From Brachybacterium faecium DSM 4810 (lineage in GTDB: Bacteria > Actinomycetota > Actinomycetes > Actinomycetales > Dermabacteraceae): a stretch of 64,000 bases of DNA. The notes under the pieces were generated by a model, which saw only the letters and a program-made list of their open reading frames with translations, did not search any database and was not told the DNA's origin. The stretch is from positions 3,224,001 through 3,288,000 of the forward strand of contig CP001643.1 in NCBI GenBank assembly GCA_000023405.1, written 5' to 3'. This document shows, in pieces, positions 25,569-28,541 of the stretch. Every line of letters starts with the position of its first letter. The stretch's first letter is position 1. Made by a program: the position numbers and the translations under genes.

Positions 25569-26720
25569 ATGAGAACCACCGCGGGCCGGAGCGCAGCCGG
25601 GGACACGAGACCAGCAGGAGCCGCGGGCGCTGCGGAAGCAGTGGGGGCACCGGGGCCCTCCCGCAGTCCGCGCGTCACGCTCGCGGAGGTGGCCCGCGCG
25701 GCGGGGGTCTCCTCCGCCTCCGCGTCGATGGCGCTGAACGACCGGCCTGGCGTCTCGGCGACGACGCGGGAGCGGGTGCACGCGGCCGCGCGGCGGCTCG
25801 GCTATCGGCGCCGCGCCCGCGGCACGGGCCTGCTCGGCGTGCTGCCCACGGACCTCGGGAACCCGTATCACACGGACGTCATCGCGGGCATCGAGGCGGA
25901 GGCGGAGAGCCTCGGCCTCGGGGTGGTGATCGCGCATGGTCGGCGCGATGGCGCCCATCTGGAACGGCAGCTGCAGCGGCTGCTCGAGCTGGACGTGGAC
26001 GGCATCGTCGCCGTGACGACCTGGCTGACCCCCGACGCCCTCGAGCAGGCCGCACGTCGGGCGCCGACGGTGGTGATCGGGCGGATGCAGGACGCGGTCG
26101 AGGGCACCGACGCGGTGAGCAACCATGACCAGGCCGGGGCCGCGCTCGCGGTGCGCCACCTGGTCGAGCGGGGGCATCGCCGGCTGGCTCACGTCACGCT
26201 GTCGACCCGTCCGGGCCCGGCGCTGCGGCGCACCGGGTTCCTCGCCGAGACGGACCGGCTGGGGCTCGGCGGGCGCTGCGAGGTGATCGGCCCGGACCGG
26301 GCGGCGGCCGAGGAGGGCATCGACATGCTGCTGCGCGCCCTGCGCCGCGGCGACCCGGACGCCCCCACCGCGGTGTTCGCCGCGAACGACATCGCCGCGG
26401 TCCGGGTGCTGCACCGCGCCGCAGACCTGCAGGTGGCCGTCCCCGAACAGCTCAGCGTGGTGGGCTACGACTCCTCGGCCGTGGCGCTGACGGTCCGCCC
26501 GCACCTGACCAGCGTGAACCAGCCCCGGCAGGAGATGGGCCGCATCGCGGCGCAGATGCTGCGCGAGCGCTTCGCCGGCCGCGCCCACGATGCCCGCAGC
26601 ATCGTCGACCCGCAGCTCATCGTGCGCGCCTCCACCGGCCCCGGCCCCGCCCTGAGCCCGGGAGCCCAGGGCCCGGGAGCCCAGGCCCCGGGGTCGCAAA
26701 TGTGCGCTGTGCACCGATGA
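25569..26720 (+). CDS. LacI family transcriptional regulator
   Basis: A 383-residue repressor-type regulator. A disordered N-terminal extension of about 35 residues precedes the HTH (VTLAEVARAAGVSSASASMALNDR), which is followed by the hinge and a periplasmic-binding-protein-like sensor (LLGVLPTDLGNPYHTDVIAGIE; AVFAANDIAAVRVL; LSVVGYDSS; TSVNQPRQEMGRIA). The last residues (SQMCAVHR) and the stop codon are encoded by the left arm of palindromic repeat copy C, so the element has replaced or extended the native 3' end. TAGACC 7 bases before the ATG may be a -10 of a leaderless promoter. Divergent from the twin-HAD/ECF operon, its likely target. Confidence 0.9.
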   Translation: MRTTAGRSAAGDTRPAGAAGAAEAVGAPGPSRSPRVTLAEVARAAGVSSASASMALNDRPGVSATTRERVHAAARRLGYRRRARGTGLLGVLPTDLGNPYHTDVIAGIEAEAESLGLGVVIAHGRRDGAHLERQLQRLLELDVDGIVAVTTWLTPDALEQAARRAPTVVIGRMQDAVEGTDAVSNHDQAGAALAVRHLVERGHRRLAHVTLSTRPGPALRRTGFLAETDRLGLGGRCEVIGPDRAAAEEGIDMLLRALRRGDPDAPTAVFAANDIAAVRVLHRAADLQVAVPEQLSVVGYDSSAVALTVRPHLTSVNQPRQEMGRIAAQMLRERFAGRAHDARSIVDPQLIVRASTGPGPALSPGAQGPGAQAPGSQMCAVHR

Positions 26721-26760
26721 TCTCGCCTGACACCGGTCCACAGCGCACAACTGCCACGAG
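26701..26760. repeat. palindromic repeat copy C
   Basis: Arms 26701-26716 (TGTGCGCTGTGCACCG, identical to copy A) and 26734-26749 pair at 15 of 16 positions. The right flank AACTGCCACGAG is shared with copy B. The left arm encodes the final codons and the TGA stop of the LacI gene. It is placed between lacI and the tyrS leader and may also act as a terminator, although it has no U tract. Confidence 0.82.
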
Positions 26761-26809
26761 AGCCGCCCGCACTGTTCCCGAATCGGGCGGGGTGCGCTAC
26801 TGTGCCGGC

Positions 26810-26881
26810 ATGCATCTGCGCCACGACTATCCGCACGGCTCTGGGACGAGCCGTGCCGTCGTGCGCCCGCCGACGCCATGA
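26810..26881 (+). CDS. putative tyrS leader peptide
   Basis: A 23-codon ORF beginning MHLRHDYPHG and ending PPTP, 6 bases after a TACTGT -10-like hexamer (26798-26803), so it may be translated leaderless. It contains one Tyr codon, TAT at 26828-26830, which is the rarer Tyr codon in a genome of this GC content. The base-paired elements that follow overlap its 3' half, as in ribosome-controlled attenuators. A single Tyr codon is weak evidence for amino-acid sensing. Not a known family. Confidence 0.4.
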   Translation: MHLRHDYPHGSGTSRAVVRPPTP

Positions 26882-26919
26882 GGCCGGCGCGCTGACGCAG
26901 CACCGCTCTTCCCAGAGCC
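26836..26919 (+). promoter_or_regulatory. alternative leader RNA stems before tyrS
   Basis: Two mutually exclusive pairings share the bases around 26837-26841. One is a local hairpin CGGCTC/GAGCCG (26836-26841 with 26848-26853). The other is a 10-bp long-range stem GGCTCTGGGA/TCCCAGAGCC (26837-26846 with 26910-26919). The distal strand ends 3 bases before the terminator-like hairpin. T-box landmarks were searched for by eye and not found. Confidence 0.45.
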
Positions 26920-26922
26920 CCG

Positions 26923-26956
26923 GGCGAGGACCACACGGTCCTCGCCTTCTCCGTTT
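26923..26956 (+). terminator. terminator-like hairpin upstream of tyrS
   Basis: Perfect 10-bp stem GGCGAGGACC/GGTCCTCGCC with an ACAC loop (26923-26946), then TTCTCCGTTT. It stands 52 bases before the tyrS start, where it could end transcription early. Confidence 0.65.
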
Positions 26957-27008
26957 CCACGGCAGGGGTGTCTGACCAGAGCTCCTCGCCCTCATCGAGA
27001 GGAACTCC

Positions 27009-28343
27009 ATGAGCACCCCGCACCGTCCCGACTCACCGCAGCCCGCCGGCCAGGTCCCCGCCGTGCCGCAACCCGCCGGCCAGGTCCTCGCCGTGCCTCA
27101 GCCCGTCGGCCCCGGCGCCACCGCTCCCCCGCCCGCGGCCCCGGCCGCACCGGAGGCGGTCCTCGCCGCGCTCGAGCGCACCACGGATCAGATCATCGGC
27201 CGCGAGGACCTGCTGGACCGGCTGCGGGAGGGGCGTCCGCTGCGCATCAAGTTCGGCGTCGACCTCACCGCCCCGGATCTGCATCTGGGCCATGCCGTGA
27301 ACCTGTGGATGATGCGGGTGCTGCAGGATCAGGGCCACACCGTGATCTTCCTGCTCGGCGACACCACCAGCCGCATCGGCGATCCCACCGGCCGCAGCAC
27401 CACCCGCCCGGTGCTCACCGAGGAGCAGATCCGCGAGAACGCCGAGTCCTTCCTCGCGCAGGTCACGCGCGTGCTGCGCAGCGAGCCCGAGCTGCTGCGG
27501 ATCCGCCGCAACTCCGAGTGGTTCGACGAGATGGGCGTGCCCGGCCTGCTGCGGGAGCTCAGCCTGGTCACGCACGCCCACCTCGTCTCCCGCGACATGT
27601 TCCGGGCGCGGCTCGCCGCGGGCAGCGAGATCGCGATGCACGAGCTGATCTACCCGGTGCTGCAGGGCTTCGACAGCGTGGCTCTCGACTCGGACCTGAC
27701 GATCGTGGGCACCGATCAGCTGTTCAACGAGGCGATGGGCCGCGAGCTGCAGGTCAAGCACGGGCAGCGCCCGCAGACGGTCATCACCAGCACCGTCACC
27801 CCGGGGCTCGACGGCGGCCCGAAGCAGTCGAAGTCGCTGGGGAACTACGTGCCGCTGTGCGCGAGCCCGGGCGAGAAGTTCGGCCGCCTCATGACCTTGC
27901 AGGACGAGCTGGTGGGCACCTGGGCGCGGGTCTACACCGACCTCCCGCTCGCGCAGTGCGCGGAGCTCGGCCGACGGGCGGATGCCGGGGGCGCCGCCGC
28001 ACGGGACGCGAAGCTGGACCTCGCCGAGGCGGTGGTGCGCCGGCACGACGGGGCGGACGCCGCCCGGCACAGCCGCGAGGAGTTCGTGCGGGTGTTCTCC
28101 GCCGGGGAGCGGCCGACGGACATGACCCCGCTCCCCCTCGAGCCGGGTACGCGGACTGCGCTCGACCTGGTCCTCGCAGCCCGGCCGGAGCTCTCGCGCT
28201 CCGCAGCCCGGCGTCTGCTCAGCGGCGGAGCGGTCACCCTCGAGGACTCGCGCCTGCGCGAGGCGGAGGAGGAGGTGGCGGTCCGTGACGGGCAGGTGGT
28301 GAAGGCGGGGCGCCGGCGCTGGTTCCGCATCGAGATGCCGTGA
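27009..28343 (+). CDS. tyrS: tyrosyl-tRNA synthetase, second type (TyrZ-like)
   Basis: Charges tRNA-Tyr in the cytoplasm; 444 residues. A 45-residue Pro/Gln/Val-rich N-terminal tail with a 30-bp tandem duplication precedes the catalytic core. Seen: class I motif HLGH in DLTAPDLHLGHAVNLW, GDPTGRS, NSEWFDEM, the tyrosine-site segment YPVLQGFDSVAL and GTDQLFN, the KMSKS-equivalent KQSKS, and a C-terminal S4-like domain (SRSAARRLLSGGAV). The layout is that of the TyrRS2/TyrZ clade, often a second copy in actinobacteria; a housekeeping copy may exist elsewhere. GAGAGGAA lies 5 bases before the ATG. Probably controlled by the leader hairpins at 26.8-26.96 kb. Confidence 0.92.
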   Translation: MSTPHRPDSPQPAGQVPAVPQPAGQVLAVPQPVGPGATAPPPAAPAAPEAVLAALERTTDQIIGREDLLDRLREGRPLRIKFGVDLTAPDLHLGHAVNLWMMRVLQDQGHTVIFLLGDTTSRIGDPTGRSTTRPVLTEEQIRENAESFLAQVTRVLRSEPELLRIRRNSEWFDEMGVPGLLRELSLVTHAHLVSRDMFRARLAAGSEIAMHELIYPVLQGFDSVALDSDLTIVGTDQLFNEAMGRELQVKHGQRPQTVITSTVTPGLDGGPKQSKSLGNYVPLCASPGEKFGRLMTLQDELVGTWARVYTDLPLAQCAELGRRADAGGAAARDAKLDLAEAVVRRHDGADAARHSREEFVRVFSAGERPTDMTPLPLEPGTRTALDLVLAARPELSRSAARRLLSGGAVTLEDSRLREAEEEVAVRDGQVVKAGRRRWFRIEMP

Positions 28344-28448: not shown

Positions 28449-28533
28449 GGAGGATTCGCATAGCGGCCTAGTGCGCACGCCTGGAACGCGTGTTGGGTGA
28501 AAGCCCTCGGGGGTTCAAATCCCCCATCCTCCG
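28449..28533 (+). tRNA. tRNA-Ser(GGA)
   Basis: An 85-nt cloverleaf: acceptor GGAGGAT/ATCCTCC, anticodon stem CACGC/GCGTG with loop CTGGAAC giving anticodon GGA at 28483-28485, a long variable arm typical of serine tRNAs, and T-arm GGGGG-TTCAAAT-CCCCC. Discriminator base G at 28533; the CCA end is not encoded. It reads UCC and UCU codons. Confidence 0.97.
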
Positions 28534-28541
28534 CCGAAGGG

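Follow-up and report, generated by a model that had tools for sequence, protein, structure and literature searches.

A conserved leader with a fixed TAT codon and covarying hairpins upstream of a second tyrosyl-tRNA synthetase gene in Brachybacterium faecium, a candidate ribosome-mediated attenuator

The window, the whole 64,000-nt stretch of Brachybacterium faecium DNA analysed here, carries tyrS2, a gene for a second tyrosyl-tRNA synthetase (TyrRS), together with a structured leader. The tyrS2 product scores 266.8 bits with TIGR00234 against a curated cut-off of 113.8. The other TyrRS of the genome is encoded elsewhere and shares 32% identity with the tyrS2 product; it is the housekeeping copy, and tyrS2 is the spare. 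A copy 53–62% identical to the housekeeping-type TyrRS is present in all 12 tyrS2-bearing genomes searched. tyrS2 itself occurs in 9 of the 38 genomes of the genus, one of the copies (in G003) being truncated and without the leader, and in 8 of the 297 genomes of an order sample (E <=1e-80), with four of these eight in Brachybacterium. Because this distribution is patchy, we regard tyrS2 as an accessory gene. The truncated G003 copy (L010) is apparently a decayed one. The N-terminal extension of tyrS2 (window 27009-27160) is rich in Pro and Ala; its length varies among the Brachybacterium copies, and it is short in the other genera compared. A tRNA-Ser(GGA) lies just 3' of tyrS2, at window 28449-28535. 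The tRNA-Ser sequence also flanks tyrS2 in L004, L008 and L009, as judged by eye, so the insertion place looks shared. Between a LacI-type gene and the tyrS2 promoter there is an 11-bp inverted repeat, TGTGCGCTGTG and CACAGCGCACA, at window 26701-26711 and 26739-26749.

The elements of the leader are listed in Table 1. A preliminary description, made from the window alone, had proposed a TACTGT promoter element, a leaderless ORF of 23 codons with a rare TAT codon for Tyr, two mutually exclusive stems that share a segment and a perfect terminator-like hairpin, with no T-box landmarks. All of these are present in the sequence at the positions given, and by the comparison of leaders described below they stand far above chance.

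Table 1. Elements of the tyrS2 leader and the gene that follows it (window coordinates).
Element	Position	Strand	Basis
-10-like promoter element TACTGT, 6 nt 5' of the small ORF start	26798..26803	+	sequence
Leaderless leader-peptide ORF, ATG 26810, TGA 26879-26881, 23 codons, peptide MHLRHDYPHGSGTSRAVVRPPTP	26810..26881	+	sequence, comparison
TAT, candidate specifier codon, codon 7, 9 nt 5' of arm A	26828..26830	+	conservation
Arm A CACGGCTC, 5' side of hairpin A:B, alternatively pairs with arm C	26834..26841	+	covariation
Loop and arm B (GAGCCGTG, 26848-26855); B pairs with A, or loop and B with 26894-26914	26842..26860	+	complementarity
Alternative pairing A:C, GGCTCTGGGA with TCCCAGAGCC	26837-26846 / 26910-26919	+	covariation
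C' and 5' part of arm C, partner of loop and B	26894..26914	+	complementarity
Arm C, TCCCAGAGCC then CC, pairs with A (upstream) or D (downstream)	26910..26921	+	A:C covariation, C:D complementarity
T, terminator-like perfect 10-bp hairpin, GGCGAGGACC (26923-26932) with GGTCCTCGCC (26937-26946)	26923..26946	+	covariation
Segment D, alternative partner of arm C 3' of T	26965..26974	+	complementarity
Segment E, can pair with the Shine-Dalgarno region	26979..26987	+	sequence, family-level complementarity
Shine-Dalgarno region GAGAGGAACTC of tyrS2	26997..27007	+	sequence
tyrS2, second tyrosyl-tRNA synthetase, 444 aa	27009..28343	+	TIGR00234 match

Thirty-nine distinct tyrS2 leaders were compared. 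They come from Brachybacterium, Occultella, Microbacterium, Isoptericola, Herbiconiux and Kribbella, and also from two Propionibacteriaceae-like bins, an Aeromicrobium bin and a Streptomyces-labelled record. L037, L038, L039 and L043 carry the same leaders as L007, L008, L034 and L035 and were counted once. Outside the 39 stand the truncated L010 and two Actinopolymorpha loci, L061 and L062, which have a reduced leader. This reduced form has TAT at codon 8 (VIGSQQRYRR in L061) followed by a short hairpin, and L061 has an additional GC hairpin. Over 74 loci, the leader was present in 31 and the reduced form in 2, and the motif located no leader near the gene in the other 41. In 19 loci picked by the protein core alone, the leader was recognized by eye in every case. 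Strong covariance-model matches occur in 8 of the 38 genomes of the genus, the same eight that have an intact tyrS2.

A TANNNT box precedes the start of the small ORF in 39 of 39 leaders, at 6 nt in 29 and at 7 nt in 10, the start codons (ATG or GTG) having been assigned with this box in view. A Shine-Dalgarno-like sequence 5' of the small ORF was seen in none of the 39. As in attenuators of the trp type, the short ORF carries a codon for the amino acid that the downstream enzyme handles. In all 39 leaders, a TAT in frame lies 8–9 nt 5' of arm A as codon 7 to 9, with TAC at this place in none, some of the leaders having been found by a motif that required TAT or TAC 5' of the hairpin. Since the motif accepts either codon and the starts were chosen with the box, the preference for TAT over TAC is the unbiased part of this observation. 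TAT makes up 12 of the 255 Tyr codons in 32 long ORFs of the window, which were picked by GC3 >0.85, a choice that favours TAC. A second Tyr codon (TAC) occurs in one leader, and the other 38 have a single Tyr codon. The 39 leaders have no Trp codon and seven Phe codons in total.

Arm A is read in different frames in different clades, offset by one base with respect to TAT (GGC-TCT versus CGG-CTC-TG, read PAL). The peptide reads YxxGS (YxxSS in one leader) in one clade and YxPAL in the other. TAT stays in frame despite the shifted frame of arm A and the changed peptide, so what is conserved is the codon and the RNA rather than the peptide. This bears on a reading in which the product of the small ORF is an arrest peptide, or in which the ORF responds to a ribosome-stalling drug and not to tRNA charging. 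The spare TyrRS could be a resistance copy, and leaders that sense drugs by stalling do exist, such as uORFC-6-1 in the accessible part of PMC8632094. A peptide and an arm A frame that vary between clades around a constant Tyr codon argue against such a role, as do the relatives of the leader before DAHP synthase genes, which carry Phe, Tyr and Trp codons (see below). We regard it as very unlikely.

Hairpins A:B and T are 97.2% paired over 30 leaders (set A1). Ten of their 18 pairs are changed on both sides, compared with 5.8 in shuffles, a value reached by 0 of 500. Compensated cells, which count sequences and not events, number 71 versus 25.8 in shuffles, and sliding the partner cuts the pairing to 32–47%. 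The alternative pairing A:C is 90.7% paired over 30 leaders (0 of 500 shuffles) and has 12 compensated cells, again counted by sequence, versus 4.3; slid by one column, 58% of the pairing is retained. In 30 mixed tyrS2 and aro leaders (set A4), A:C has 25 compensated cells versus 8.7. The first loop base accounts for thirteen of these, and the change there partly follows the split between tyrS2 and aro leaders. The first loop base and arm C form C-G in 15 of the 30 rows and U-A in 13, and are unpaired in 2. Because this base is unpaired in A:B, its covariation with arm C is not explicable by A:B. The two stems both use 26837-26841 and both covary, so they are mutually exclusive in the manner of the trp type. 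T is kept in 37 of the 39 leaders; in the window it is followed by TTCTCC, a weak U-tract. It is absent in Kribbella L053 and L055, which retain the ORF, TAT, A, B, C and D. L053, L055 and L060 have TGGAG as Shine-Dalgarno sequence where the others carry GAGAGG.

The fixed, specifier-like codon 5' of a stem would also suit a riboswitch that binds tRNA and has UAU as its specifier, be it a T-box or another kind, and T-boxes control tyrosine genes in other bacteria, according to the accessible text of PMC1262725. No Rfam family, T-box included, reached its curated cut-off in the 64,000-nt window. At E <=10, the surroundings of the leader gave only three microRNA matches, far under their cut-offs, and no T-box. 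The covariation of the loop with arm C and a codon that belongs to the reading frame of the small ORF in all 39 leaders also speak against such a riboswitch, which seems to us extremely improbable.

Additional pairings were assessed by complementarity. In the window, the helix of loop and B with C' and C has a dG of -26.3 (p=0.010). It is significant at p<0.05 in 12 of 75 leaders and in 5 of 33 hand-picked representatives, with a Fisher value of 9e-5 over the 33. In the test of C:D, D:E and E:SD, 12 of the 75 leaders and 3 of the 33 representatives were skipped, T being absent or not detected by the script, which leaves 63 and 30. C:D is complementary at p<0.05 in 24 of 30 representatives (Fisher 9e-19) and in 45 of 63 leaders, D:E in 7 of 30 representatives (Fisher 3e-7) and E:SD, the pairing of E with the Shine-Dalgarno region, in 4 of 30 (Fisher 1e-3); all these p-values overstate the significance, because the leaders are treated as independent. 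C:D is near-invariant in Kribbella and says little there. For the window alone, p is 0.075 for C:D, 0.43 for D:E and 0.85 for E:SD. The Shine-Dalgarno hairpin of the window is no stabler than shuffles (z +0.47), and the mean over the 39 leaders is -1.04. The covariation of D:E is not above shuffles in either clade. E:SD pairing over 14 leaders is reached by 5 of 500 shuffles; 68.8% is paired, versus 67.2% after a one-column slide.

The leaders were also folded with and without a ribosome. In the stall model, the ribosome masks bases up to 12 past the first base of TAT; the accessible text of PMC4833913 gives about 12 nt hidden past the translated codon. With TAT masked in this way, A:B is predicted to be lost and the loop to stay free. 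The tested A:C pairs exceed 0.5 in 34 of 39 RNAs truncated after arm C and in 15 of 39 full leaders, and with a mask two bases longer in only 4 of 39 short and 2 of 39 full RNAs. This model-based result for A:C is fragile and hinges on the mask length. With no ribosome in the model, A:B rises above 0.5 for 17 of the 39 short and 24 of the 39 full RNAs, and the window's own leader is predicted to adopt A:C at equilibrium, not A:B. A modelled ribosome at the stop codon favours A:C. Over 73 leaders, modelled stalling raises C:D rather than lowering it. T is paired in the free, stalled and at-stop equilibrium models, and the difference between stall and stop is larger than half a pair in 3 of the 73 leaders. 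Between stalled and free models, pairing of the Shine-Dalgarno region has no consistent change (less in 18 and more in 19 of 73), and the same holds for the folding of the 39 leaders (5 up, 6 down). Neither inspection by eye nor constrained equilibrium folding found a competitor for the 5' arm of T or a conventional antiterminator. The antiterminator of the trp type, which takes the 5' arm of the terminator, is thus absent from the equilibrium models.

These pairings and folds can be read as purely post-transcriptional control, in which T is a spacer and the position of the ribosome is relayed from C to D, to E and to the Shine-Dalgarno region. C:D reaches beyond T and can form only in read-through RNA, yet among the four complementarities tested it has the strongest significance. 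The Fisher values of D:E and E:SD, the shuffle test of E:SD over 14 leaders, and the two Kribbella leaders that lack T but retain the ORF, A, B, C and D are in agreement with such a relay. The covariation of D:E at the level of shuffles and the small effect of sliding E:SD weigh against it, and no consistent change in Shine-Dalgarno accessibility is predicted with the ribosome on TAT. T is moreover kept in nearly all leaders and is followed by a long U-tract in some of the aro leaders described below. We judge control by this relay alone to be unlikely.

The scaffold is also found before genes of the aromatic pathway. At E <=0.01, a covariance model built from tyrS2 leaders alone has matches in 64 genomes of a class sample of 394, weak and partial matches included. 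A mixed model, built partly from these class-sample matches, finds 77 of the 394 genomes at E <=0.001, and 61 matches in 60 genomes at E <1e-7. In a phylum sample, it matches 10 of 198 genomes, with strong matches only inside the class. We classed 57 distinct loci with tblastn and Pfam, four of the 61 strong matches (G354, G459, G477, G648) being left out: 40 precede an aroF-type DAHP synthase gene, 15 a gene of the DAHP synthase/chorismate mutase type and 2 tyrS2. No other target was found among the 57. The weak matches L172, L176, L178-L183, L186, L188 and L189 were judged false by eye and left unclassified. In L209 and L210, the match to a DAHP synthase-type protein begins 1026 and 807 nt on. 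In L212 and L214, the ORF downstream of the scaffold matches no more of the reference protein than its chorismate mutase part.

Thirty-six of 42 aro loci could be parsed, and in these the aromatic codon closest to arm A, 8 or 11 nt away, is TTT (30 loci), TAT (5) or TTC (1). Many aro leaders also have TAT and TGG further up (e.g. YWRF), and some have a long U-tract after T. The B. faecium genome itself contains a second scaffold, located before aroF (L202, G000:C1:672166-672275). Its leader MQNRWFTYAMSAPEGPATV has Trp, Phe and Tyr codons in the order W-F-x-Y. A common RNA scaffold with aromatic codons therefore stands before aromatic pathway genes, as in the aroR-aroF kind of system. The codon pattern across targets suggests one scaffold, with Tyr before tyrS2 and often several aromatic codons before the first gene of the shared pathway.

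Hairpins form readily in GC-rich leaders, and several of the tests on the window alone are not significant, as would be expected of fortuitous hairpins behind a constitutive promoter. The covariation over 30 leaders and the recurrence of the scaffold in 60 of the 394 genomes, some of them sources of the model, contradict this. The comparison across genomes refutes the fortuitous origin, and we give it next to no credence.

The reading that we prefer, at roughly two chances in three, is that the tyrS2 leader is a ribosome-mediated attenuator that senses charged tRNA-Tyr and raises the spare TyrRS under shortage. The mRNA would start at the small ORF and be translated leaderless. When Tyr-tRNA is scarce, the ribosome would wait on the single rare TAT and cover the 5' side of arm A. 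The stalled ribosome would block A:B and leave the loop and B free to pair with C' and C. When Tyr-tRNA is plentiful, the ribosome would move on, and A would pair with B, or with C when the ribosome is near the stop codon. The partner of C would set tyrS2 expression, through T and/or the region over the Shine-Dalgarno sequence.

We hold with fair confidence that this leader senses Tyr-tRNA through the ribosome. At the level of sequence comparison, the conserved leaderless ORF, the fixed TAT, the covarying A:B, A:C and T, and the complementarity of C to D point to this. Stalling on TAT and the direction of the response are what we infer from it; induction on shortage is expected because of the function of the gene and the precedent of Corynebacterium glutamicum aroF (see below). 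The output step is also inferred, because no competitor for the 5' arm of T was found, folding of T and the Shine-Dalgarno region has no consistent change and the stall model depends on the mask. We count against the attenuator model the weak U-tract and the presence of only one Tyr codon in 38 of the 39 leaders.

The preliminary description had considered the leader an attenuator-like control of a second-type TyrRS and a different way of controlling such a gene. A non-T-box leader is supported by the comparison, but it is not a textbook attenuator, no competitor of the 5' arm of T having been found. It is conserved before tyrS2 but not particular to it, the scaffold also being found before DAHP synthase-type genes. 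Covariation in related leaders and conservation of the small ORF had been suggested as checks, and both came out in favour: A:B, T and A:C covary above shuffles, and the ORF is kept with its in-frame TAT in 39 of 39 leaders. A bolder proposal is possible, with the odds against it. The scaffold may be a modular actinobacterial chassis in which one codon (UAU or UUU) at a fixed place sets the amino acid sensed, similar to a T-box specifier but read by the ribosome. The signal might then pass without an antiterminator, via exclusive helices (A:B or A:C, C:D, D:E, E:SD), past T to the translation start.

If the attenuator reading is true, actinobacteria gain a ribosome-read control of a TyrRS, and a common RNA scaffold links the spare synthetase with the first step of the shikimate pathway. 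Because no antiterminator is apparent, the leader also lends itself to asking how such signals are passed on to expression in high-GC bacteria.

In Firmicutes, tyrS is controlled by the level of tRNA-Tyr through a T-box with a specifier codon 5' of a stem. The tyrS2 leader differs from it in that a ribosome and a leader ORF would take the place of direct tRNA binding, and it has no T-box match. For Actinobacteria, a 2005 survey describes trp, leu, ilv, cys and ileS elements, ileS being under T-boxes, and its accessible text reports nothing conserved before tyrosine or phenylalanine operons (PMC1262725). The literature searched, mostly at title and abstract level and with subscription journals thinly covered, contained no tyrS attenuator in Actinobacteria. 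Elsewhere, leaders are described for cysS in Rhodobacterales and for aroF in Acholeplasma (PMC8632094, accessible part). The LEU element of actinobacterial leuA is similar to the tyrS2 leader in having exclusive structures and in not being a classical attenuator, and differs from it in sequence and amino acid (PMC1262725, in the portion available).

Related cases are the leaders of leuS, trpS, alaS and thrS in Streptomyces lividans, as presented in the accessible sections of PMC8079986. Similar to the tyrS2 leader, the Streptomyces attenuators of these genes have an ORF before an aminoacyl-tRNA synthetase gene, and several are leaderless (PMC1262725, PMC8079986, available text). In S. lividans, the leader of trpS contains just one cognate codon, as does the tyrS2 leader. 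These attenuators differ in the amino acid and are likened here by description, with no tyrS case among those in the accessible text. The aroF leader of C. glutamicum is the aroR-aroF attenuator (PMC4046766, PMC11802643, both in part). There, aroF rises on Phe limitation and Tyr availability is without effect, according to the available part of PMC11802643, in line with Phe being the aromatic codon closest to the hairpin in most of the aro leaders found here. Like our scaffold, and again as likened by description, aroR-aroF is an actinobacterial leader peptide with aromatic codons before a DAHP synthase gene, whereas the leader in the window stands before a TyrRS gene and contains a single Tyr codon, with neither Trp nor Phe codons.
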